In this document: positions 5,526 through 34,080 of the stretch, piece after piece | Layout: every line of letters begins with the position of its first letter | Numbering within the stretch: the first letter of the stretch is position 1 | NCBI RefSeq assembly: GCF_002563635.1 | Contig: NZ_PDIZ01000001.1 | Coordinates: forward strand, 2,232,001-2,296,000 | Origin: Bacillus sp. es.036 | GTDB lineage: Bacteria > Bacillota > Bacilli > Bacillales > Guptibacillaceae | Length of the DNA stretch: 64,000 nt | Direction of reading: 5' to 3' | Program-made: the position numbers and the translations under genes | The notes under the pieces: model-generated | Databases searched by the model: none | What the model was told of the DNA's origin: nothing | Seen by the model: the letters and a program-made list of their open reading frames with translations, nothing else

Positions 5526-6554
5526 CTATTCGAATGGCCGATAAAAGGGTTGATTCTCAATATTCATGATTCGATTCGCAGCCACTTCGAACTCGGAAGG
5601 CTTTACTTCGTAAAACATACGTAGTTCTTCATTTGTTACGTCTTCACCATTCATTTCAGATGCAACCTTATGGACAGCAGCAGCCCACACTGAACTATTT
5701 GGAGGCTCTGCTTCAAATGGAGAGATGGCAAATAAATAGTGCCACCAAATTTGCATGCACATTTCAAATAGTGCTGGATTTCCCTGCTCGACAACATCAG
5801 AGAGCTTGGATTTCACACTTAAGGAGAAATCTTGTAAAAAGATATCCTGTAATGTAGCTGGATTCACCTTGATCTCTCTTCCAAACTTATGTACGACCAC
5901 TTCTTGATCCAATTCCTTTTCTCTCAATACTTGTAAAACAAGACTTTTAAGAAGAGGATCCTTGTTTGTTGCATTTAAATATGTAAGATATACGGGGAGA
6001 GACTTTTGTTCATCTACAGTGCTTAATTTTTGAATGGCTAACCACTGTTTTTCCGTCTTATCGCTCTCCAAATAATCAATGAGCTTGTCAACATCTTCCT
6101 CGTGACCAGCATCATAATCAGCCTCAGAATCAAGGTCATAATTCGTCATTTGTCTGCTAAAATGTAGCAACTGGTAGAGCGACTCCGCAATGTTAGACGG
6201 AAGTTGATTTTCTTGTAATACTGCTTCGATCATCGTAACTACTTTCTGATACTTTCCAAGCTGAACTAAAATTGATATGTATACTTGAAAAATGTCGTAA
6301 TAGTCCCCGATCCCCTGCTGCATCATTGTTTCACAGCGTTCAGACGCTTCACTCAAATTGCCCATCTCCACCAGGCTTAAAACCATTCCAAAATGCCCCT
6401 GTGGATGTTCCGGCTCAATTTCAAGTAGCTGACTAAAATGTTCATGCGCTTTTGTTATTTCTTTAGCTTTTAGTGCTGCCATTCCTTTTTCGACAAGCTT
6501 ACCTGCCACGTTTGGAAAATAAACTATTTTCCTTTCATCCTTTTCTTTATCCAT
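5526..6554 (-). CDS. ysoA: TPR-repeat protein, YsoA family
   Basis: A cytoplasmic protein of 342 residues with tetratricopeptide-type helices in its first half: a stretch around 20-60 (KAHEHFSQLLEIEPEHPQGH) and another around 60-95 show the A-G-Y/F-A-P spacing of TPR hairpins. The middle is acidic (about 140-160) and the C-terminal half is helical with no known motif. It lies upstream of tig in the same orientation, matching ysoA of B. subtilis. It probably acts as a protein-protein scaffold, but its function and partners are unknown. The family call rests on repeat pattern and gene position. Confidence 0.8.
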   Translation of the reverse strand: MDKEKDERKIVYFPNVAGKLVEKGMAALKAKEITKAHEHFSQLLEIEPEHPQGHFGMVLSLVEMGNLSEASERCETMMQQGIGDYYDIFQVYISILVQLGKYQKVVTMIEAVLQENQLPSNIAESLYQLLHFSRQMTNYDLDSEADYDAGHEEDVDKLIDYLESDKTEKQWLAIQKLSTVDEQKSLPVYLTYLNATNKDPLLKSLVLQVLREKELDQEVVVHKFGREIKVNPATLQDIFLQDFSLSVKSKLSDVVEQGNPALFEMCMQIWWHYLFAISPFEAEPPNSSVWAAAVHKVASEMNGEDVTNEELRMFYEVKPSEFEVAANRIMNIENQPFYRPFE

Positions 6555-6798
6555 GACGTAATCGCTCCACTCTCTTATATTCTCTATTAAAAGAGTTTAC
6601 AGCAGGAAAGGCGCAGCTACGATTAGATATCAGTTTATCAGTATCCACCTGTAAACTCAAGCTGAAGCACGCTACCGGAATCTGAAATCCTTTTATCTGT
6701 TTATTCATGATTGCTGTAAAAGCTCATTAGCAACATCAGATATACAAAAAAAAGCCATTCTATCACAAAGGATAAATGCCTTTAAAGAAAACATATAA

Positions 6799-6875
6799 TG
6801 GTGTCCCAGGCAGGATTCGAACCTGCGACCCACAGCTTAGAAGGCTGTTGCTCTATCCTGCTGAGCTACTGGGAC
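6799..6875 (-). tRNA. tRNA-Arg (anticodon TCT)
   Basis: A complete 77-nt cloverleaf on the minus strand. The acceptor stem is GTCCCAG/CTGGGAC, the T-loop is GTTCGAATC, and the anticodon arm ACAGC-CTTCTAA-GCTGT has a TCT anticodon reading AGA. The discriminator is A and CCA is encoded at 6799-6801. It stands alone in a 437-nt gap between ysoA and ysnB. Nothing else recognisable is in that gap apart from the ysnB terminator. Confidence 0.97.
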
Positions 6876-6956
6876 ATTGTTAGTATAAAACGATTCAGTT
6901 TCTAGCGACATGTATTAATATATCGGATTACATTAGTAAAGTCAATAGGAAACAAT

Positions 6957-6989
6957 AGAAAAAAACACAGCATGCGCTGTGTTTTTTTC
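6957..6989 (-). terminator. Rho-independent terminator of the rph-rdgB-ysnB operon
   Basis: Perfect palindrome AACACAGCATGCGCTGTGTT (six-base loop at most), followed by T-rich sequence on both strands, immediately after ysnB. It sits between ysnB and the tRNA gene. Confidence 0.85.
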
Positions 6990-23064: not shown

Positions 23065-23295
23065 AACAAATCCAAGAAAACGTCCCTATGTGAGATAGTT
23101 CTCCATCCAATTCCCGGGTAGGTATTGGATGACAGCTCTGCATTTATTCAATACAGATCCAGTTTCAGACGGATAAGCGCCTTTCCACTTCGGCAAATTC
23201 CCCTTTCAACTACGATCAACGAGTCTTAACACTCTCCCGTAAGCTTACTAATGGTTTTTGCGCCTCTACCATCACTTCAACTTTCGAAGTGTGGA
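23065..23295 (-). promoter_or_regulatory. Lysine riboswitch (L-box)
   Basis: The minus strand carries the conserved L-box blocks in order: GATGGTAGAGGCGC, AGTA, GGGAGAG, GAAAGGGGAA, TGCCGAAG and GCAGAGCTGTCATCC, with the closing pairs. When lysine binds, the terminator downstream forms and lysC is off. It occupies most of the 498-nt gap between uvrC and lysC. Confidence 0.95.
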
Positions 23296-25214: not shown

Positions 25215-26714
25215 TTACTTTAGAAACTCATAAAACACAATGTCATGATAGACAGGGTCATATAGCTTTGAAGAATGAAATGTTTGGATTCGTTTCACTT
25301 GATCTTCAATCGGTATCCCTTGTTTTGCAAACCCTTCAACTACTTGCTCTGTTAAATATACACGATGATTTTCATAATAACGAAGATCTGCGAGAAAAGT
25401 TGAATAGGTGTAAATTTGTTCATGTTCAAATGAAACACGATTAAAAGACATTACCCTTGTTTCTTCCCAAGTATACACAATAAGCGGTTCACTCTCGTCT
25501 TCTAAGTAATCAATTAATTGATAAACAGCCGCTGGATCGTTTGCTTCCTTCATGGTTATATAAGAAACCGCTGACTGCACGCTAATAATGACGGCTAACA
25601 ATAGCAACATTCTTTTCGACCCATCACATTGTTTTTTTAATCCAAACCATAGAAATCCAAGCAATACCATTCCTGGAAGCGGGAGAATATGTCGAGGCTT
25701 ATCTATATTCTGTGCAAATAAAGCCCAAAGAAAATAACTAAAGATCATACTGGCAAACGCCCATCCAAACCAAGAGACTTCCGTAATCCTTATTGGTTTC
25801 TTCACTCGAACCATTGTTAAGTATACGAAGAGTGCTACGAGTAATAACAATACGAAAAGGTTTTGCCCACCAATCCCTGTCCATACAATATTATTTAGAA
25901 AAAGATGAGATAGACGCTCAATAAAAGAACTCGATGCGGAAACAGCTGTTCCTCCCCATTCTTCAAAGTGACCTTGAGAGAAGCCTAATGCTAGCTGAAG
26001 AAAAGCAGCGACCCCTCCTTCAGAAACAGCAAGGCCACCAACCCAAATGAACTGAAAAGCTGCAGCTACTAGCACTTGCATCATTAAAAAAGAGAGATAT
26101 TCTTTAGCTGTGAATTTGTTTTTTCGATGAATTAATAGCAACACGAAACCAATTCCGAACGGTAAATACGATAATCGCACTCCTAGTAATAAACTAAAGA
26201 AAAATGAAGATATTACGATCCAAACAGTTGAATGTTTAGTAAAGGCATGTTGTAAACTCCACAAATACCACCAGAGCATTGCAACCGCTGAAGCTTCACT
26301 CATCGGTTGAACAGTTAGCACATTTATAAACACCATAGATTGAATAAGAGCAACTGCTACAATGCTAAACGTCTTTGAGAGAAACGATCGACTTATTATA
26401 TACATTGGATATATGGCAAGTAGCATAAGAAGAGAATTCCAGGATGCAAGTGCCTCAGCTGGATTAGAAATCCATTTATTCAGCCAAATGCCTCCAAGAA
26501 TAAAATAAGGATACCCTGGAAAATGTGGCTGCATTGCAAATAAATCAAAACGATCGAGGGCTAAAGTAAAATCAACCTGATCCCAGGAACGTGGTGACTC
26601 GATTGCATAGATAAATCTCCACCATACGAGTAATATAAGACTAATGAGTGACAAAACCCATACCAGGGTATGAATGGCATACCGTTCCTTTCGATTTCTA
26701 AAAGCTCGATTCAT
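25215..26714 (-). CDS. Polytopic membrane protein resembling GT-C glycosyltransferases
   Basis: A 499-residue protein with about ten to twelve membrane segments, then a soluble C-terminal domain of about 120 residues. The first outside loop carries acidic SPRSWDQVDFTLALDRFDL (about 40-58), which fits the catalytic-acid loop of GT-C enzymes using lipid-linked sugars. The following PHFPGYPYFILGGIW and the motif NIDKPRHILPLPGM also resemble the mannosyltransferase/PMT-like superfamily. AAAGGATGATACAAA precedes the start. It follows the iron genes after a terminator and is 77 nt from uvrC. The donor and acceptor are unknown. Function inferred only from topology and sequence style; related nearby genes suggest a polyprenyl-phosphate sugar donor. 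Confidence 0.55.
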   Translation of the reverse strand: MNRAFRNRKERYAIHTLVWVLSLISLILLVWWRFIYAIESPRSWDQVDFTLALDRFDLFAMQPHFPGYPYFILGGIWLNKWISNPAEALASWNSLLMLLAIYPMYIISRSFLSKTFSIVAVALIQSMVFINVLTVQPMSEASAVAMLWWYLWSLQHAFTKHSTVWIVISSFFFSLLLGVRLSYLPFGIGFVLLLIHRKNKFTAKEYLSFLMMQVLVAAAFQFIWVGGLAVSEGGVAAFLQLALGFSQGHFEEWGGTAVSASSSFIERLSHLFLNNIVWTGIGGQNLFVLLLLVALFVYLTMVRVKKPIRITEVSWFGWAFASMIFSYFLWALFAQNIDKPRHILPLPGMVLLGFLWFGLKKQCDGSKRMLLLLAVIISVQSAVSYITMKEANDPAAVYQLIDYLEDESEPLIVYTWEETRVMSFNRVSFEHEQIYTYSTFLADLRYYENHRVYLTEQVVEGFAKQGIPIEDQVKRIQTFHSSKLYDPVYHDIVFYEFLK

Positions 26715-26782
26715 TTTGTATCATCCTTTTCAGTTTCAAACAGAGGCGCAAAGCTATCTAAACATCGTTTGCGGTACTAATG

Positions 26783-26824
26783 ATGAAAAAAAGCACAAGA
26801 CGATTTATTCCGCCTTGTACTTAG
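26783..26824 (-). terminator. Rho-independent terminator after the iron permease gene
   Basis: Stem AAGTACAAGGCG/CGTCTTGTGCTT (with a few G-T and mismatched pairs) and a run of seven T on the minus strand, shortly after the 26830 stop. Confidence 0.8.
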
Positions 26825-26829
26825 TGAGT

Positions 26830-27771
26830 TTATTTTACTGCAGATTCATTCATCTCGTTCGTTGTTTTAAAAACAGCTTTATTATTAGGTTCTTTTACTT
26901 CTGTTTTTACTGGCTCTTTCTGGTGATTGACGAGCAAGTAAATCACGGTAAAGTAACCGACATACGCTATAATTTCTTCAATGGAAGGCATTGAGGAATA
27001 ACCAAACAATGCTTTAAAGAAGATACCGATATCACCAGAGAGTAACGGAGCTACCCCTTGATCTCGCACGTAATGGGCATAGTCAATTGGATGCTCAGGT
27101 AAAAACCATGTTAAGTCATACACATGAGGCATAACACTGCCAATTAATTTAATATCTTGCATCATTGATATTCCCTGTACAAATAACCCACCTGCAATGA
27201 GTACAATAAAAATACCAGTGATTTTAAAGAAGGATTTAAGTGGAATACGCATCGTACCTTTAAAGAAAAAGTATGAAACGGCTGAAGCAATTAAGACTCC
27301 AGTAATCGCTCCCCATCCTTCAAATCCTTTACCGATGTCTCCTCCAGTAATAGCTGCAAAGAAGAAAACAGTTTCGACACCTTCTCGTAGAACAACTAAG
27401 AAAGAGTGAATTACCATGCCAATAACATTACCTGTCGTAATGTATTCCGTCATCTTCCCCTCGGTTTTACTTTTAAGGTTACGGCTATGCGAAGCCATCC
27501 AGAATACCATTTGAGTTAATAAAACAGCTGAGATAAGCATAATGGAAATCTTCAGGTAGATCTCGCTTCCCATTGCAGCGAATCCTGTGAAAACAACCTG
27601 AAATAGCATGGCAACGCCAATACTTGCTACTACGGCAAGACCGGCTCCTAACCAGACAAACTTGTTATACTGGCACTGTCCCATTCGTTTCATATAAGTC
27701 GTTATGATTCCAATAATGAGAAGCGCTTCAAGTACTTCTCTGAACATGATCAGTAATGCCTGAATTTCCAT
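26830..27771 (-). CDS. efeU: FTR1/EfeU-family iron permease
   Basis: Membrane permease of 313 residues with seven predicted membrane segments. Both signature iron-binding motifs are intact: REVLE (11-15) and REGVE (129-133). The family moves ferrous or ferric iron inward in partnership with an oxidising or binding protein. The usual Bacillus partners EfeO and EfeB are not adjacent; instead a membrane-anchored protein lies 30 nt upstream, the first gene of this operon. The C-terminal tail is hydrophilic. Fur control is expected from the operator upstream of the partner gene. Confidence 0.9.
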   Translation of the reverse strand: MEIQALLIMFREVLEALLIIGIITTYMKRMGQCQYNKFVWLGAGLAVVASIGVAMLFQVVFTGFAAMGSEIYLKISIMLISAVLLTQMVFWMASHSRNLKSKTEGKMTEYITTGNVIGMVIHSFLVVLREGVETVFFFAAITGGDIGKGFEGWGAITGVLIASAVSYFFFKGTMRIPLKSFFKITGIFIVLIAGGLFVQGISMMQDIKLIGSVMPHVYDLTWFLPEHPIDYAHYVRDQGVAPLLSGDIGIFFKALFGYSSMPSIEEIIAYVGYFTVIYLLVNHQKEPVKTEVKEPNNKAVFKTTNEMNESAVK

Positions 27772-27801
27772 TAAACTTTCCCCTTTCTACAAACAAATAC
27801 T

Positions 27802-28566
27802 TTACGAGCGACGACGCTTTCTAGTTGTATAAATGACAACTCCAACAATTATTGCTACAAGAATGATGAGCGGGATCCAATTCGAGAGTTGACCTAAATC
27901 AGTCCAATCTGTTTTCCCACTCGACGTTTCTTCTTCAGTCGCACTTTCACCAAAGTGACCGATCTCAACCGATTTCATTTCAAAATGATCTTGTAATCCA
28001 TCAAGAATAACTTTCTTGCTTTCAGCAAACTGTTCTTCATTCGATTCTTTCTCACCAACCCCAAACAAACCAGGATTACCGAGAGAATCAAGTATAACTT
28101 CAAACTCATTTTTTATTTTTTCGTCAAGTTCAGGATTTGTATCTTTCACTACTGGAGAGAGCGTTTTATATGTAGCATCTGCTTTTCCAACCAATTTTCT
28201 TGTCGTATCATACTCTTCAAAATCTTTCTCTACATTTTCAAGTCTTCTAGAGATATTAAGCACAAGAATTTGCTGCATATTTGTCATCACAGCTTCTTCA
28301 TTCTCATTGTCTAATTCAGTTTGAACAGCCTGAACCGCATCATCACCCATATGTAATTGTATTTCTTCTTTTACAGAAGAAAATATTTCGTTGGCTTGAT
28401 TAAAATTAGGAGGAGATTCATTTAATTTAGCAGACATTTCACTATAGGCTTCAGCTACTTTTTCTTCAGTAGGATCACCATAGGAATAAGCTTGAGCAAG
28501 ATCTGGTACAGCAAGAGTACAAATTAGTGTTAGTAAAAAGAATGATGATAGAATGCGTTTTTTCAT
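27802..28566 (-). CDS. Extracytoplasmic membrane-anchored protein partnered with the iron permease
   Basis: 254 residues: signal peptide (1-26, cleavage after AQA), a helical acidic ectodomain, and one C-terminal membrane helix (about 232-250) followed by a basic TRKRRRS tail. The ectodomain is rich in Glu, Asp and Gln, and has a YSEMSAKLNE start and an FNQANEIFSSVKEEI stretch. The same kind of helical domain occurs fused to FTR1 permeases in other bacteria, so it may present iron to the permease. No copper-oxidase or imelysin motif is visible. It is the first gene of a two-gene operon under a near-perfect Fur box. Role in iron uptake is inference from context. Confidence 0.7.
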   Translation of the reverse strand: MKKRILSSFFLLTLICTLAVPDLAQAYSYGDPTEEKVAEAYSEMSAKLNESPPNFNQANEIFSSVKEEIQLHMGDDAVQAVQTELDNENEEAVMTNMQQILVLNISRRLENVEKDFEEYDTTRKLVGKADATYKTLSPVVKDTNPELDEKIKNEFEVILDSLGNPGLFGVGEKESNEEQFAESKKVILDGLQDHFEMKSVEIGHFGESATEEETSSGKTDWTDLGQLSNWIPLIILVAIIVGVVIYTTRKRRRS

Positions 28567-28583
28567 TAGAAATCCTCCTCATT

Positions 28584-28603
28584 GATAATGATAATGATTA
28601 TCA
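28584..28603 (-). promoter_or_regulatory. Fur box upstream of the iron-uptake operon
   Basis: The 15-base palindrome TGATAATGATTATCA (28589-28603) matches the Bacillus 7-1-7 Fur operator fully, and the 19-base window at 28584-28602 agrees with the classic Fur consensus at 18 of 19 positions. It covers the promoter -10 region and part of its spacer, so Fur-Fe2+ should block transcription. Confidence 0.95.
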
Positions 28604-28616
28604 TCATTGAAGTCAA
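28588..28616 (-). promoter_or_regulatory. Promoter of the iron-uptake operon
   Basis: TTGACT (28611-28616), 17-nt spacer and TATCAT (28588-28593) on the minus strand. It would give a leader of about 15 nt ending in AATGAGGAGG. Overlaps the Fur box. Confidence 0.65.
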
Positions 28617-28630
28617 TAACAGATCGGTAA

Positions 28631-29404
28631 TTAGTGTGACTTTTCTGCCATGATTGCTTCCATCTTGTTAAGATCGAGATCATGGGCATGATAGTTGATC
28701 GCTACCTTCTGAACGGGGCGAGTCATTTCCTTAAAGATCGCTGGTAAAACGGAAGTTAAATACGCTTTAAATTTAATATAGGATTCACCAGTCGAGCGTA
28801 CTTGATAAGTGATTGGCACTTCCTTAACTCTAAATCCTTTTCTAACAAGATTTAATGTTAATACCTGAGCATAGTTGTAATCATGAATAATTTCACTGTG
28901 CTCCATCGCCTGTCTTGAAAAAACCCTCATTCCTGATTGGCCATCATAGATCCACTTTTGCAAAAGGAGTGATTGAAGAAACGTAAAACAATAATTGCCC
29001 AGTCGCCGATGTAATCGCATGCCATCAATCGTTCCTTTAAACCGAGATCCCATCACATAGTCTGCTTCGCCATTAAAAACAGGTTCGAGTAGGTCTGGTA
29101 ATTGCCATGCCGGGTATTCATTATCAGCATCAAGCATAACGCCAATGTCTGCGCCAAGTTCGACTGAGTGAGAAATTCCTTTTCGAACCGCGGCACCAAG
29201 TCCTTGATTTGTTTTAAAAGAATAAATGTAGTCTGCACCCGCTGATTTTGAAACTTCTACAGTTCGGTCCGTAGATCCATCGTCTATCACTAATACACTT
29301 ACGCGAACGGTAGGATGAATATCTCTTGGGATTTGTTTGATTACTTCCCCAATGGAATCCTCTTCGTTGTGTGCAGGTAAAAAAACAATGACGTGTTGCT
29401 TCAT
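28631..29404 (-). CDS. Family 2 glycosyltransferase, polyprenyl-phosphate sugar synthase type
   Basis: A 257-residue GT-A enzyme without membrane helices. Motifs are clear: PAHNEEDSIGEVI (10-22), DDGSTD (41-46), DAD at 92-94 for metal and nucleotide sugar, GSRF (about 122-125), and DGQSGMRVFSRQ further on. It resembles DPM1-like enzymes that load a sugar onto a polyprenyl phosphate. Its start overlaps the stop of the upstream phosphatase-superfamily gene by 4 nt. Last gene of the four-gene operon 32722-28631. The sugar and lipid are not known. Confidence 0.85.
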   Translation of the reverse strand: MKQHVIVFLPAHNEEDSIGEVIKQIPRDIHPTVRVSVLVIDDGSTDRTVEVSKSAGADYIYSFKTNQGLGAAVRKGISHSVELGADIGVMLDADNEYPAWQLPDLLEPVFNGEADYVMGSRFKGTIDGMRLHRRLGNYCFTFLQSLLLQKWIYDGQSGMRVFSRQAMEHSEIIHDYNYAQVLTLNLVRKGFRVKEVPITYQVRSTGESYIKFKAYLTSVLPAIFKEMTRPVQKVAINYHAHDLDLNKMEAIMAEKSH

Positions 29405-30864
29405 TTTATTACTTCTTCCTTCCTATCTTGAAAAGCTTCCTCTAAAATTGCTCCCCTACTATGCGATGGAATTGGAGCTCCAAGTAAATGTGCCACAGTC
29501 GGTGCAACAGACGTAAGGCTATGTTTTTCTTCGACAATTTTTCCTTTAGCAATCGATGGGCCATTTAAGAAAAATGGCACGAACCGTTCCCCTTCATCAA
29601 GATGGCCATGTCCCCCGATTCCATCTGCCTGTCCATGATCCGCGCACACAATCAAAGTTGTGTTTTCCATAAATCCATTTTCATGTAAGAAGTGAACATA
29701 ATCTTCTACTAATTTATCCGCTTCTTCAATTTTTTGAATGTAATCATCATACAGTACACCTCTTGCATGTCCTGTTTGATCAGTACCAATTAGCTGTACC
29801 GTAAAGAAGTCAGGGTTTTTATCTAGCATAATTTGACGAGCACCCTCCATAATTTTCGTATCCGCCACATCATTGTTCATAACAGCCGTTACAGTATCAA
29901 CATCATCACCCATCGCATCAACAAGGTGAGCAATTCCGAGAAGCCTTCCTGTCTTTCCAACCTTTCGTAGTGAATCAAAAATCGTTTCTACTTTTACACC
30001 TAGATTCCAAACCATATTGGACTTGATACCGTGCTCAAGTGGATATGTACCTGTCATCATAGAAGAAAAGCAAACAACAGTACGAGCTGGATAAACAGTT
30101 TCCATTTGACTGTATTCTGTCCCATTTTTCTTTAAAGAATCAAGGAATGGCGTGTTCGCTTCCTGAAATCGTTCTTTCCGCATCCCATCAATCACGATCA
30201 TAATGACTCGCTCGTTTGTAGGAGTAAATTTCACTGGTTTTGTGTAATCCGATTTCACCGCTGGTTTCCAGTCAAACAGGTAATGATGAAGAATAAAGCT
30301 AAACAACCATATTCCTGCATAAAAGAAAGCAAGTGTTGTCCAATCAAACGTACCTCTATTCGTGAGAGAAGTTTCAACAACCGCGATCCAGATCGATAAA
30401 ATTAACAAAAATTTAGGGAGCTGTTCTTGTGCGTTACCGCTCGTGGAATCACTATTCTTAAGTACCAACTTCCAGAAGCGAGTGAAGTTCAGCCAAGTTG
30501 TCCCAATACGAAGATGATAGTAGAACGTGCCCCAAAAAAAGACAGTAAAGAAAAAATAAAGACCGATCCCGAGCATAGCCGCTGATAAGGAGAACTGATC
30601 AAAAATCAATAAATATCCTACGAGAGGAATCCACAAATAATTTCGTAAAAATAAAGGATAATCATAAACATAATAAAGTACGAGAAGTGGTAAGACAGCA
30701 ACGAATCCTAGAAAAAACGCTCCCCAAAACGCGCCCGAAGTCCACTGCGTAATAAATAATAACAACATCGTCCCCGTTACAAAAATAGGGGTAAATGGTT
30801 TACCTTCATTTAGAAGATTCCAGCATCTAGCTGCTATCTTTTCAAATCCTGAAGCTTGTTTCAT
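29401..30864 (-). CDS. Membrane enzyme of the alkaline phosphatase superfamily
   Basis: 487 residues: about five to six membrane segments (25-195) and a large C-terminal catalytic domain. In that domain D226 (MIVIDGMRKERF) is the first metal ligand, T262 in the YPARTVVCFSSMMTG stretch is the likely nucleophile, and VCADHGQADGIGGHGH near residue 410 carries the other metal ligands. This is the nucleotide pyrophosphatase/phosphodiesterase-like architecture. It may hydrolyse or transfer a phosphate group on a lipid-linked or envelope substrate. The catalytic domain could face outward. Start overlaps the upstream flippase-like gene by 4 nt. Confidence 0.75.
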   Translation of the reverse strand: MKQASGFEKIAARCWNLLNEGKPFTPIFVTGTMLLLFITQWTSGAFWGAFFLGFVAVLPLLVLYYVYDYPLFLRNYLWIPLVGYLLIFDQFSLSAAMLGIGLYFFFTVFFWGTFYYHLRIGTTWLNFTRFWKLVLKNSDSTSGNAQEQLPKFLLILSIWIAVVETSLTNRGTFDWTTLAFFYAGIWLFSFILHHYLFDWKPAVKSDYTKPVKFTPTNERVIMIVIDGMRKERFQEANTPFLDSLKKNGTEYSQMETVYPARTVVCFSSMMTGTYPLEHGIKSNMVWNLGVKVETIFDSLRKVGKTGRLLGIAHLVDAMGDDVDTVTAVMNNDVADTKIMEGARQIMLDKNPDFFTVQLIGTDQTGHARGVLYDDYIQKIEEADKLVEDYVHFLHENGFMENTTLIVCADHGQADGIGGHGHLDEGERFVPFFLNGPSIAKGKIVEEKHSLTSVAPTVAHLLGAPIPSHSRGAILEEAFQDRKEEVIK

Positions 30865-31802
30865 GATGTTTCTCCTTTCTTTTTCATAAACGACCTCAAC
30901 TCCTGAAATCGAAGAGGGTAAAGATAAAAAGCAACTAAACCGGCGACAAAAGAATAAGCATATTTAAAAGCATGAGTAACAAGCGCAATTGAAAAGGCCT
31001 CTTCCCATCCAATACCAACCTGATGAAGTGAGAAGCTCATCACACTTTCATAAGTGGCAAAACCACCAGGAGCAAGCTGGAACACCCCTGATCCAACTGA
31101 TAAAGCGGTTACCCACATAGCGTCCAAATAGGCAAAGTGATGGTTAAAGCCAGCAACGGAATAAACGACGATTCCTTCAGCTATCCAGCTGAGACATGAA
31201 ATGAGGAAGATAAGAACCATGTAAGGCGAGTATACTAGTTTCTTCATCATAGCGAACTGTTTGTACAAAAAACCCGCATTAGCTTTCTTTCTTACATACA
31301 GGATAAGAATTAATACGCTCACTAAACAGAGAGTTATCATTCCTAATAAAAACGTTGTACTAACCGTAATCCCAAAAAGTTCTGCACCAATCATGGCAAA
31401 AATACCAAGCCAGAAAAGATCAATCGCACGTAGGATGACGACAGATTGAATAGAAGTTGTCCACTGTCCTTTTTGTTTATGCGCAAGAACCCCCATTCGT
31501 ACAGCTTCTCCTCCCTTAAACGGTAAAAGGTGGTTAAAAAACAAGCTGTAAAAGATTCCTGCCAAATAAACTCTCATGGAAATGGTCCTGTCAACAAGTA
31601 TTCTCCAACATAAACCCCGTAATAAAAAAGAGCACGTATACCCGATAACCATTGCAAACAACAAGCCCGGGTTGCTGATTAACTCTTTAGTAAGGGTGGT
31701 TAGCGTAGTAACATTAAATTCATTTAACAGTAGAAATGCAAAGAGAGAAAGTAGTAACAAGCCAAATACCCATTTTATAATTCGTGATAGCTTTTTGCCC
31801 AT
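30861..31802 (-). CDS. LPG-synthase-like integral membrane protein (possible flippase)
   Basis: 313 residues with eight or so membrane helices, of the lysylphosphatidylglycerol synthase membrane-domain family (as in MprF and AglD). Typical motifs are FFNHLLPFKGGEAVRMGVL (about 88-106) and QLAPGGFATYESVMSF. It lacks the cytoplasmic aminoacyl-transferase domain of MprF. Members of this family flip or transfer lipid-linked substrates. The start lies 28 nt inside the epimerase gene, with AAGGA 7 nt before ATG. Product and role are inferred from family and neighbours. Confidence 0.75.
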   Translation of the reverse strand: MGKKLSRIIKWVFGLLLLSLFAFLLLNEFNVTTLTTLTKELISNPGLLFAMVIGYTCSFLLRGLCWRILVDRTISMRVYLAGIFYSLFFNHLLPFKGGEAVRMGVLAHKQKGQWTTSIQSVVILRAIDLFWLGIFAMIGAELFGITVSTTFLLGMITLCLVSVLILILYVRKKANAGFLYKQFAMMKKLVYSPYMVLIFLISCLSWIAEGIVVYSVAGFNHHFAYLDAMWVTALSVGSGVFQLAPGGFATYESVMSFSLHQVGIGWEEAFSIALVTHAFKYAYSFVAGLVAFYLYPLRFQELRSFMKKKGETS

Positions 31803-32722
31803 TCAATTGTCCTTCTTATCCCTTCTTCAAAGGTTACTTCAGGAGAATATCCCAGTTCATTTCGTGCCTTACTAATATCTCCCCACGTATGTCGAACATC
31901 TCCTCGCCGAAACGTATCTTCTCTCACCTTCGCACTTGGAAAATACTGAGTAAGCAATTGGATCAACTTTGTGAGATGCACAGGTGATCCCGAACCTAAA
32001 TTATAAACTTCAGATAAACCGTCCTGCTTAAAGGCTAACGTTATGCCCTGAATAATATCATCAATATAAGTGAAATCTCTTGATTGCTCACGATCATACA
32101 CGGTGATCTCCTCGCCTTTTATCAACTTCTCAATAAAGAGAGGAATCGCCATGTCTGGACGCCCCCACGGTCCATATACGGTAAAGAATCGCAGTATCGT
32201 TAACTTAAAGCCATAGAGCGATTGATAAGCATGACAAAACGATTCTGCTCCTGCCTTCGCCGCTGCATAAGGTGATTTCACCTTCCCACTTGCATGCTCT
32301 TCCTTCACTGGACCCTCTTCTCGACTTCCATATACAGAAGAAGATGATCCGAACAAAACATGAGGTATACCAGTTTCACCCGCTGCACTTAAAACATTAA
32401 CGACTACTTTGATATCCTGATCGATATAATCTAATGGATTTTTTAATGAATATTGTACTCCAGGAAGGGCAGCAAGATGAATCACTTTATCATAAGTGTA
32501 GGCTTTGAAATGAGCCAATGTTTGATCAGCATCTAACAAATCAAACCTATGTACACTTATAGGTCCATTTTTCTTAATTTCCTCTAAATGTTCTACCTTT
32601 CGCTCTACATGATAATATGATGAAAAATGATCAATTAGCGACACGTCATGACCAGCTTTTAAGAGCGTTTTTGCAAGACTACTACCTATAAATCCTGCCC
32701 CTCCAGTAATTAATACCTTCAT
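31775..32722 (-). CDS. NAD-dependent sugar-nucleotide epimerase/dehydratase
   Basis: An extended short-chain dehydrogenase of 315 residues, probably acting on a UDP-sugar. The Rossmann motif GGAGFIGSSLAKTLL is at residues 7-21, SSSSVYG contains the catalytic serine, and YAAAK the YxxxK pair. The remaining sequence resembles UDP-glucose or UDP-glucuronate 4-epimerases. I start it at 32720-32722, with GGGAG 8 nt upstream; an upstream 21-codon extension lacks that site and opens with a hydrophobic stretch unlike the family. First gene of the operon; no clear own promoter, so it may be read from upstream through the 32773-32799 hairpin. Confidence 0.85.
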   Translation of the reverse strand: MKVLITGGAGFIGSSLAKTLLKAGHDVSLIDHFSSYYHVERKVEHLEEIKKNGPISVHRFDLLDADQTLAHFKAYTYDKVIHLAALPGVQYSLKNPLDYIDQDIKVVVNVLSAAGETGIPHVLFGSSSSVYGSREEGPVKEEHASGKVKSPYAAAKAGAESFCHAYQSLYGFKLTILRFFTVYGPWGRPDMAIPLFIEKLIKGEEITVYDREQSRDFTYIDDIIQGITLAFKQDGLSEVYNLGSGSPVHLTKLIQLLTQYFPSAKVREDTFRRGDVRHTWGDISKARNELGYSPEVTFEEGIRRTIEWAKSYHEL

Positions 32723-32772
32723 ACTATGCACTCCCGCTATACACTTCAATCTATAAAAACTTAATAACAAGA

Positions 32773-32799
32773 GAAATGGCCGCAATTAGCGGCCATTTC
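32773..32799 (-). terminator. Rho-independent terminator of the lipoprotein gene
   Basis: Perfect stem GAAATGGCCGC/GCGGCCATTTC with a five-base loop. The T-run after it on the minus strand is short (CTCTTGTT), so some read-through into the epimerase operon is plausible. Confidence 0.75.
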
Positions 32800-32808
32800 A
32801 ATCTAAAA

Positions 32809-34011
32809 CTATTCTACTACACTTTCTAGTGTGGTCAAAATTTGTTCACTTAGTTTATTTGCCTCTTCAGCATCGTTATTTGACACAGCATCAAACCAAC
32901 TTTGTGCATCTTCGTACACGGCATTTGTCTCATCTTCACCTAGTGCTTCCATTAACGGCATTTCGATAGCTTTTAAGAAAACGTTGGCTTCCATTGCAGC
33001 CTCTTTTCCTTCAGAAAGATTGTTTTCATCTAATTCAGCTACTTTTTCATGATAGCCTTTAATTTTTCCAGCAAACGCTTTTTCGAACAAGTTAGATACT
33101 TCATCCGCTTTAATGGCCTCCGGATCATTGCTAATATCGAATAGCTCGCTTAGCTTCTGTGCAGCTTCTTCATCTCCGCCTGAGAGAGATCCTTTAATAG
33201 CTTGATAAAATCCAAGTGCTTCCGTTTGCATAATTTGAAGCTCTTCTGTTTCACCAGAGCTTACGGCTTCTTCAATTTTCTCAGCATAAGAATTCGCTGC
33301 CAAGTAGTAGCTCTTATAAATTGATTTATCAGTTACCTGCTTTGTAACAGCAAAGTTTTCCATATCTCCTTCAGAAAGAGCGTCTTCCTGTGCTGAAAGA
33401 CCATTATTGATGTTTTCTACAAGACTAGAATCTCCTTCAAGTTCATAATAGGAGTCGCGTTTTTCTGCAGTAGGAACGAATACTTTCTCAGTAAGTAATT
33501 TTACTTCTTCAAAATGAAGCATCGCTTCTTCATCTTTTTTCGCGTCCTTCGCATCAATTACCGCTTGTTGAAGAGACTTTTGTTTCTGATAAAAGTATGA
33601 CTGTGTGCCTTTATCAATCATTTGTCGCGCAACGTTTTGATCAAGCTCACCTGATTTACCCGCTTGTATACCCGTCGTGATAAAGGTATCAAATTCATTA
33701 TCGATTTCATTCACAGCGCTTTTCAATTCGCTTGAGTAGGTAGATTCAATAAGGTCCCAGTCCACTTCTTCGTTTTCTTTCATTTTGTTCAGCTCATCCA
33801 ACATCTTTTGATACGCTTCCACTTGCTTTGTAGTAACAGCGTTTTCAATCGTCATATCATTTGATTGAGTTTCAGATGATTGTGAAGCGGAATTTGTTTG
33901 TTCCTGAGAATTGCTACCTGTATTTGCAGCATTTTCAGAATCATTACCACATGCAGCGAGAACCGTAGCTGCAAGCGTAATAGAAGTAAATAGCATAGTT
34001 GATTTTTTCAT
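32809..34011 (-). CDS. Putative iron-regulated lipoprotein, all-helical
   Basis: A secreted lipoprotein: I start it at 34009-34011 (400 residues), where AAGGAG precedes the ATG; a 31-codon upstream extension covers the promoter and is not coding. The signal ends in LAAC (Cys21), followed by a Ser/Asn/Gln-rich linker (about 22-52) and a mainly helical, very acidic domain. It may comprise two related halves (around 60-215 and 215-400), each helical and rich in Glu/Asp. I recognise no catalytic motif, and it is not clearly an EfeO-type imelysin protein. The promoter carries a Fur-like site. Possibly an iron-binding partner of the permease nearby, but that is inference. Confidence 0.65.
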   Translation of the reverse strand: MKKSTMLFTSITLAATVLAACGNDSENAANTGSNSQEQTNSASQSSETQSNDMTIENAVTTKQVEAYQKMLDELNKMKENEEVDWDLIESTYSSELKSAVNEIDNEFDTFITTGIQAGKSGELDQNVARQMIDKGTQSYFYQKQKSLQQAVIDAKDAKKDEEAMLHFEEVKLLTEKVFVPTAEKRDSYYELEGDSSLVENINNGLSAQEDALSEGDMENFAVTKQVTDKSIYKSYYLAANSYAEKIEEAVSSGETEELQIMQTEALGFYQAIKGSLSGGDEEAAQKLSELFDISNDPEAIKADEVSNLFEKAFAGKIKGYHEKVAELDENNLSEGKEAAMEANVFLKAIEMPLMEALGEDETNAVYEDAQSWFDAVSNNDAEEANKLSEQILTTLESVVE

Positions 34012-34051
34012 TATGTAAAACTCCTTTTCGTCAGGTCGTTTATCCAAGATG

Positions 34052-34080
34052 ATTATATCGAGAACGATTATCAGTGTCAA
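34052..34080 (-). promoter_or_regulatory. Consensus sigma-A promoter with Fur-like site in the spacer
   Basis: TTGACA (34075-34080), 17-nt spacer and TATAAT (34052-34057) on the minus strand, a fully consensus promoter. The spacer holds CGAGAACGATTATCA (34059-34073), with a perfect right half of the 7-1-7 Fur operator; the window 34060-34078 agrees with the 19-base Fur consensus at 14 positions. A strong promoter with a repressor site exactly between its hexamers. Confidence 0.75.

Follow-up and report, generated by a model that had tools for sequence, protein, structure and literature searches.

A conserved FTR1 iron-permease gene set co-inherited with a predicted lipid-linked sugar pathway in Bacilli

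The DNA analysed here ('the window') is a 64,000-nucleotide stretch of contig NZ_PDIZ01000001.1 from Bacillus sp. es.036 (genome size 4.34 Mb), in which eight genes on the minus strand lie between trxA and uvrC. From trxA to uvrC they encode a lipoprotein (LIPO), an NAD-dependent epimerase (EPI), a flippase-like membrane protein (FLIP), a membrane protein with an NPP-type alkaline-phosphatase-superfamily domain (PDE), a glycosyltransferase (GT2), a membrane-anchored extracellular protein (P3tm), an FTR1/EfeU-family iron permease (FTR1) and a GT-C-like membrane glycosyltransferase (GTC). That the iron arm (LIPO, P3tm and FTR1) and the glycan arm (EPI, FLIP, PDE, GT2 and GTC) form one functional module is well supported. 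We suggest, with a confidence that stops just short of even, that this is an iron-acquisition module in which FTR1 uptake depends on a dedicated anionic uronate glycan of the envelope. Literature searches returned no published account of such a combination of FTR1 with a lipid-linked-sugar module.

Co-inheritance and rearrangement of the gene set

The linkage is best seen in the distribution of the genes among genomes. For a sample of 249 genomes of the order, we ran searches with PDE (cut-off E 1e-40), FTR1 (cut-off E 1e-20) and profiles of P3tm, GTC and LIPO. PDE, orthologous FTR1 and P3tm occupy an identical set of 67 genomes; GTC is found in the same 67 and, as broken copies, in G059 and G183, and LIPO in the same 67 and in G226. 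PDE identity is at least 64% throughout, the broken copy in G116 excepted, and no other genome has PDE at this cut-off. FTR1 is present in 74 genomes, with at least 48% identity in 67 and only 29-32% in seven, which shows that the module is not needed by other FTR1 proteins; G143 carries one FTR1 of each class. Nine genera (g23, g28, g37, g41, g45, g47, g62, g68 and g76) contain both module-positive and module-negative genomes, suggesting that several separate gains or losses probably underlie the all-or-none pattern. Kinship among the genomes enters through this count of mixed genera, and all counts are made without a tree. The near-identical genome sets of the five searched genes strongly support the idea, raised in a preliminary description of this DNA, that the block travels as a unit, and the linkage goes well beyond what was proposed there.

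Within the window's own family, for which short loci were fetched from ten genomes, PDE is present in 14 of 15 genomes and LIPO in the same 14; in four of these, LIPO is absent from the block and lies elsewhere in the genome. The remaining case, G007, belongs to the same genus; its trxA and uvrC are intact, and all that is left between them is decayed remains of FTR1 and GTC (L143 6864-7770), a state that is a loss of the module. A separate observation concerns G183, where five other same-strand frames occupy the module's place, from trxA to the broken GTC adjoining uvrC (L178 9966-14365).

Patterns from the PDE alignment picked out 192 relatives among 84,980 species genomes, and the named-locus counts given below refer to the best 80 of these. 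Because the patterns demanded peptides invariant in the alignment, distant PDE relatives would escape. All 80 named loci are titled Bacilli and include Anoxybacillus, Peribacillus, Neobacillus, Rossellomorea, Halobacillus, Tepidibacillus, Chengkuizengella and Paenibacillus; the closest to the window among them, with 98% identity in PDE, comes from a strain of Pseudalkalibacillus hwajinpoensis. The module genes lie on one strand in every locus, and the full order LIPO-EPI-FLIP-PDE-GT2-P3tm-FTR1-GTC is kept in 58. EPI, FLIP and GT2 are present in 66, 77 and 80 loci, respectively. Both trxA and uvrC fall within the fetched stretch at 42 loci, neither at 37 and one of the two at a single locus. 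The block had been described as inserted between uvrC and trxA, but an insertion is not shown: these 42 relatives hold the set at the same position, where G007 shows a decayed one. For the 67 positive genomes, 17.5-18 kb around PDE were also fetched for 40, and a long stretch for G084 and G116; the 40 regions overlap the named loci in genomes (e.g. L012 and L063), and the two counts are kept separate.

The set is retained through several changes of order. Ten Paenibacillus loci have the order FLIP-PDE-GT2-GTC-P3tm-LIPO-FTR1, while an eleventh Paenibacillus-titled record (L081) has the usual one. A third order, LIPO-P3tm-FTR1-EPI-FLIP-PDE-GT2-GTC followed directly by a nucleotide-sugar dehydrogenase, is found in G136 (L027), where LIPO is a tandem protein in a single 811-codon frame. 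In a fourth, that of Tepidibacillus, GTC is placed ahead of FTR1. Two Fictibacillus genomes, G201 and G096, keep only EPI-FLIP-PDE-GT2 between trxA and uvrC; LIPO-P3tm-FTR1-GTC lie together ~377 kb away in G201 and ~470 kb away in G096, and in G201 both separated halves carry Fur boxes. Scattering of the genes in relatives would have spoken against a unit, and a check for it found FTR1 in the fetched flank of PDE at 78 of 80 named loci. The two exceptions are L098 and L074 (G096), the latter keeping its four genes together elsewhere as just described. Survival of the set through rearrangement, relocation and 377-kb splitting supports the reading of an iron module, and so strict a linkage with FTR1, P3tm and LIPO suggests a role of the glycan product in iron capture.

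Locus layout and predicted iron control

The block lies between trxA (34469-34158, minus strand, as are all genes given below) and uvrC (25137-23356), where the preliminary description had placed it, although LIPO was not named there. That description's four-gene overlapping operon likewise stands: EPI-FLIP, FLIP-PDE and PDE-GT2 overlap end to end by 28, 4 and 4 bases. A gap of 30 bases separates P3tm from FTR1. A hairpin with a T-run follows trxA, LIPO and FTR1. The terminator-like hairpin in the LIPO/EPI gap (32774-32798, minus) may be leaky because its T-run is displaced by ~14 bases; that in the FTR1/GTC gap spans 26790-26825 (minus). Beyond the block, a lysine riboswitch (23088-23276, minus; Rfam RF00168, 101.9 bits) is located between uvrC and an aspartokinase gene.

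Two Fur-type operators had been reported to frame the block. Both sites exist, but the perfect 14/14 palindrome, upstream of P3tm-FTR1 (28589-28603, plus), is mid-block, and only the weaker, Fur-box-like 11/14 site upstream of LIPO (34059-34073, minus) lies at an edge, that of trxA. Scores are matches to the 7-1-7 Fur consensus TGATAATNATTATCA; for the named loci, they come from the 150 bases that precede each predicted start. Three sites with at most two mismatches, two of them overlapping, are found in the 64 kb window against a mean expectation of 0.72, and three or more occur in 6 of 100 shuffles; as this count alone is barely above chance, the window sites gain their weight from conservation. 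A box of at least 12/14 is located upstream of P3tm in 76 of 78 named loci (perfect in 56) and upstream of LIPO in 55 of 74. The 19 LIPO misses comprise the ten rearranged Paenibacillus loci, where LIPO lies inside the P3tm operon, and nine loci scoring 11/14 as in the window. Shuffled sequences reach the threshold in 0 to 0.8% of cases, and the control genes have no such box (etfB 0/39, trxA 0/42, uvrC 0/43, lysC 0/36).

The same threshold is reached in the named loci upstream of none of the PDE (0/80), GT2 (0/80) and GTC (0/78) genes, and upstream of few EPI (2/66), FLIP (2/77) and FTR1 (1/78) genes. The EPI matches are Fictibacillus loci L074 and L098, in which EPI comes first, and Fictibacillus L021 (G201) is arranged likewise with a score of 13/14; for other EPI upstream regions the best score is at chance level. 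The FLIP matches come from two of the ten FLIP-first Paenibacillus loci, and the FTR1 match is Tepidibacillus, with FTR1 split off. In G136 the glycan operon lies behind Fur boxes in a single rearranged gene run. Terminator-like hairpins, called by a simple rule, occupy the LIPO/EPI gap in 55 of 60 loci (shuffled, 30/300), the FTR1/GTC gap in 58 of 64 (35/320), the GT2/P3tm gap in 22 of 68 (7/340) and the trxA/LIPO gap in 35 of 35 (37/175).

In the window layout, LIPO and P3tm-FTR1 look like Fur targets as predicted from these sites, and the glycan operon and GTC probably use other promoters or readthrough. The preliminary description had inferred that iron supply and envelope modification might be controlled together. 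The iron half of this holds in the conserved boxes of LIPO and P3tm-FTR1; in the window layout, shared control is not shown, since EPI-FLIP-PDE-GT2, which lies behind a terminator-like hairpin, lacks a Fur box, as does GTC. Common control of the glycan operon has sequence support in the three Fictibacillus loci, two of the ten Paenibacillus loci and G136, and not elsewhere.

Predicted functions of the encoded proteins

Residue conservation was assessed in alignment subsets of 40 PDE, 38 LIPO, 41 P3tm and 38 GTC sequences, and in a further group of 33 EPI, 39 GT2, 36 FLIP and 41 FTR1 sequences from which members beyond the length limits were excluded. The translated stretches for LIPO and EPI start one codon before their ATGs (34011 and 32722), and residue numbering follows these stretches.

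FTR1 (27771-26830) matches its Pfam family with 131.8 bits against a cut-off of 25.3 and NCBIfam EfeU with 184 bits, below the cut-off of 255; each of the 41 aligned members has two RExxE motifs. P3tm (28566-27802) consists of a signal peptide, an extracellular domain and a C-terminal transmembrane anchor. The 400-residue LIPO (34011-32809) has an all-helical structure model and is distantly related to the FEA1-related lipoproteins of NF038033, which 33 of 38 LIPO members match; the 51.2 bits of the window copy is the best score, below the curated cut-off of 250. For LIPO and P3tm, no Pfam family reaches its cut-off. An M75 domain was found neither in the window LIPO or P3tm nor among the 25 families listed for the 38 LIPO members of the block, and a DyP-type haem peroxidase (EfeB) had no match among the eight block proteins, to which that search was confined. 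Across the 40 fetched regions, FTR1 is of two kinds by identity to the window copy (71-91% or 45-51%), as is P3tm (45-77% or 28-37%). The kinds switch together in the 39 regions with both genes, while PDE stays at 63-85%; this co-variation points to P3tm and FTR1 acting in partnership.

Two LIPO genes lie outside the usual setting. The window genome has a second LIPO-family gene encoding 393 residues (L174, G000:C1:3204000-3216000, 5801-6982), and the fetched 12 kb around it contains no other module genes and no Fur box of at least 12/14. The LIPO of G226 is located upstream of genes for a UDP-N-acetylglucosamine 2-epimerase, a GT2 and a sulfatase-family protein (L186 5579-11667), and thus next to another set of glycan and alkaline-phosphatase-superfamily genes; it is the only LIPO among the 249 genomes found without PDE, the FTR1 orthologue, P3tm and GTC.

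EPI (32722-31775) is a predicted UDP-glucuronate 4-epimerase-like enzyme for which the residue signature points to interconversion of UDP-glucuronate and UDP-galacturonate. PDB entry 6zl6 we take to be the Bacillus cereus UDP-glucuronate 4-epimerase. A different entry, 6Z73, is cited in PMC12338863. Among 33 aligned EPI sequences, the equivalents of Arg185 and Thr280 are kept in all and that of Pro85 in 31, and the catalytic Tyr and Lys are each kept in 33. FLIP (31802-30861; 313 residues) has a sole match, to the transmembrane region PF03706 (LPG_synthase_TM); we rejected an assignment as MprF or lysylphosphatidylglycerol synthase because the C-terminal synthetase domain is absent.

PDE (30864-29401) combines five or six membrane spans with an NPP-type alkaline-phosphatase-superfamily fold in which the seven metal and nucleophile residues, assigned what we presume to be their ligand roles, are all invariant. 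Cysteines are rare outside Gram-positive cells, and Cys265 and Cys407 are invariant in PDE; the side of the membrane on which the catalytic domain lies is therefore uncertain. With the PIG-N-type ethanolamine-phosphate transferases of glycosylphosphatidylinositol (GPI) synthesis, PDE shares only the broad family PF01663. A loop between membrane spans at residues ~126-151 (NFTRFWK...NSDSTSGNAQEQ.PK) is near-invariant in the 40 homologues.

GT2 (29404-28631) resembles dolichol-phosphate-mannose synthase and ArnC in its matches to structure entries (5mlz, 66.4 bits; ArnC entries, 36.7-40.1 bits), and its best profile match is AglJ, a dolichyl-phosphate-hexose-synthase type (105 bits against a cut-off of 325). 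The aspartates D42, D92 and D94 are invariant in all 39 sequences. Fold and catalytic acids are those of a polyprenyl-phosphate glycosyltransferase-like enzyme of the DPM1/AglJ/ArnC/RgtE type. The window GTC (26714-25215) falls below the PMT_2 threshold, and at E 0.01 a match to this family is seen for 21 of 38 members.

Proposed mechanism, alternatives and related systems

We infer the sugar, its acceptor, the role and sidedness of PDE, the ability of LIPO and P3tm to bind metal and the aid of the glycan to iron capture, and offer the biochemical mechanism as a testable proposal. Under iron shortage, Fur would release LIPO and P3tm-FTR1, and LIPO and P3tm would gather iron outside the membrane and pass it to the FTR1 permease. 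EPI would convert UDP-glucuronate to UDP-galacturonate, GT2 would load the uronic acid onto polyprenyl phosphate, FLIP would aid the membrane crossing of the lipid-linked sugar and GTC would move the sugar to an acceptor at the outer surface; PDE would make or break a phosphodiester in the same glycan product. The anionic glycan would most likely concentrate or position iron near the iron-binding proteins. A bolder form of the proposal, which we regard as a speculative and rather doubtful possibility, is that the uronic-acid and possibly phosphorylated surface glycan is a fixed iron-capturing matrix, a cell-bound glycan siderophore. It would be built by GPI-like assembly (GT2, flippase, GT-C and NPP-fold transferase) and emptied by the lipoprotein, the membrane-anchored receptor and the FTR1 permease, forming a new class of iron acquisition.

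Several observations weigh against an iron module of eight genes. The order-wide search covered five of them, namely PDE, FTR1, P3tm, GTC and LIPO. At the block, FLIP is absent from three and LIPO from six of the 80 named loci, and EPI is missing from 14, among them all ten rearranged Paenibacillus loci. In L071 only a short LIPO piece was found. Each of the six EPI-less genomes tested has another epimerase elsewhere with the Thr/Arg/Thr pattern (five also have the Pro; G085 has Ala), but this argument for a spare enzyme is weak because the window genome too has a second such epimerase. The signature of EPI itself is incomplete, with the Gln211 equivalent being Gln in only 5 of 33 sequences and mostly Thr or Ser otherwise. 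G226 has LIPO without PDE, the FTR1 orthologue, P3tm or GTC. In G116, PDE is broken by 14 counted stops, FLIP is in two frames and EPI was not found, while the FTR1, P3tm, LIPO and GTC frames are open; an assembly error is possible in this genome (6% contamination). In G060 a single stop interrupts PDE close to the end of the frame. LIPO and P3tm are only putative metal binders. The match of the window GTC to PMT_2 reaches 21.1 bits against a cut-off of 26.1, and the nucleotide-sugar dehydrogenase that follows GTC in G136 does not discriminate, being present in 239 of 249 genomes. Finally, the glycan operon and GTC of the window layout lie behind terminator-like hairpins and have no Fur box.

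Among the alternatives, the one that fares best, though unlikely, is that the glycan arm glycosylates LIPO, P3tm or both, through O-glycosylation by a PMT-like GTC, and so stabilizes or localizes them. The loose PMT_2 likeness of GTC fits this idea, as does the lack of modelled structure in the first 50 residues of LIPO (signal and linker; pLDDT under 50). In the 33 of 38 LIPO members in which a lipobox was recognized, however, the linker is rich in acidic residues (median D/E 34%) and not in Ser/Thr (median 17%), and 4 of the family's 14 module-bearing genomes have LIPO at another place in the genome. Envelope remodelling under iron starvation, in which the glycan would alter the wall in parallel with uptake and not be required for transport, is a still less probable account. 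The Fur boxes on the glycan operons of three Fictibacillus and two of ten Paenibacillus loci speak for it; most glycan operons, by contrast, have no Fur box and would not obviously respond to iron, yet PDE is strictly co-inherited with the iron arm.

We think it quite improbable that PDE is itself the key iron enzyme, freeing iron from phosphate-containing ligands or recycling a lipid-phosphate intermediate while the transferases serve it. Its mean column identity of 73%, far above that of LIPO (39%), P3tm (37%) and GTC (44%), and its NPP-type fold would suit such a role, but EPI, GT2, FLIP and GTC are then left unexplained, and PDE, with its five or six spans and invariant Cys265 and Cys407, may not face outward. 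Hitchhiking of two unrelated operons in a stable chromosomal neighbourhood, with no functional tie, is scarcely credible: the trxA-uvrC position common to 42 of 80 loci would allow it, but the other evidence is contrary, with 37 loci elsewhere, several gene orders, halves co-retained 377 kb apart, five searched genes kept or missing in the same genomes, and single-arm genomes so rare that G226 (LIPO only) is the one intact-part case in 249, besides two broken GTC copies.

The iron-module reading draws together features of several known systems. Known EfeUOB-type members are under Fur control. Described FTR1/EfeU permeases have oxidase, peroxidase or M75 binding-protein partners, and the block resembles EfeUOB, YwbLMN and FepABC in joining such a permease with RExxE motifs to extracytoplasmic partners (PMC9174327). 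It differs from the EfeUOB type in having neither an M75/cupredoxin EfeO nor a DyP peroxidase EfeB among its eight proteins, in its five added glycan genes and in the position of LIPO and P3tm below every Pfam cut-off. The logic of GT2, FLIP and GTC is that of Haloferax AglD-AglR-AglS, for which part of the published account describes a GT2 that charges polyprenyl phosphate in the cytoplasm, a membrane protein in delivery and a transferase outside (PMC3871713). That branch belongs to an archaeal N-glycan and carries mannose, whereas a uronate is predicted for the block, and iron genes are not mentioned in that part of the account (PMC3871713).

Lipid-linked galacturonate transfer, as proposed for the block, is also the business of rhizobial RgtE and RgtA-D/F, although Rgt modifies the lipopolysaccharide of Gram-negatives. 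RgtA-D are galacturonate transferases, and we know of no PDE, FTR1 or Fur link for rhizobial Rgt. An excerpt of one account lists rgtE as a putative bactoprenyl-phosphate galacturonate transferase gene adjoining RgtF (PMC5644692). EPI matches the B. cereus UDP-glucuronate 4-epimerase in its Arg185, Thr280, Pro85 and catalytic Tyr/Lys equivalents and in most members differs from it at Gln211. The GPI pathway uses a Dol-P-Man synthase, GT-C mannosyltransferases and PIG-N-type transferases. By analogy, GT2, GTC and PDE may follow a similar logic of GT2, GT-C and a PF01663-type membrane enzyme; the block is bacterial, and the family shared is only the broad PF01663.

A strict, order-wide tie of an FTR1 subgroup to a lipid-linked-sugar pathway is a type of partnership that we have not found in print. 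If the proposal is correct, many Bacillaceae and Paenibacillaceae would need a dedicated envelope sugar to take up iron, and several uncharacterized families (LIPO, P3tm and the PDE family) would gain a function. The part played by surface uronates in iron capture would then be open to direct testing by single deletions.

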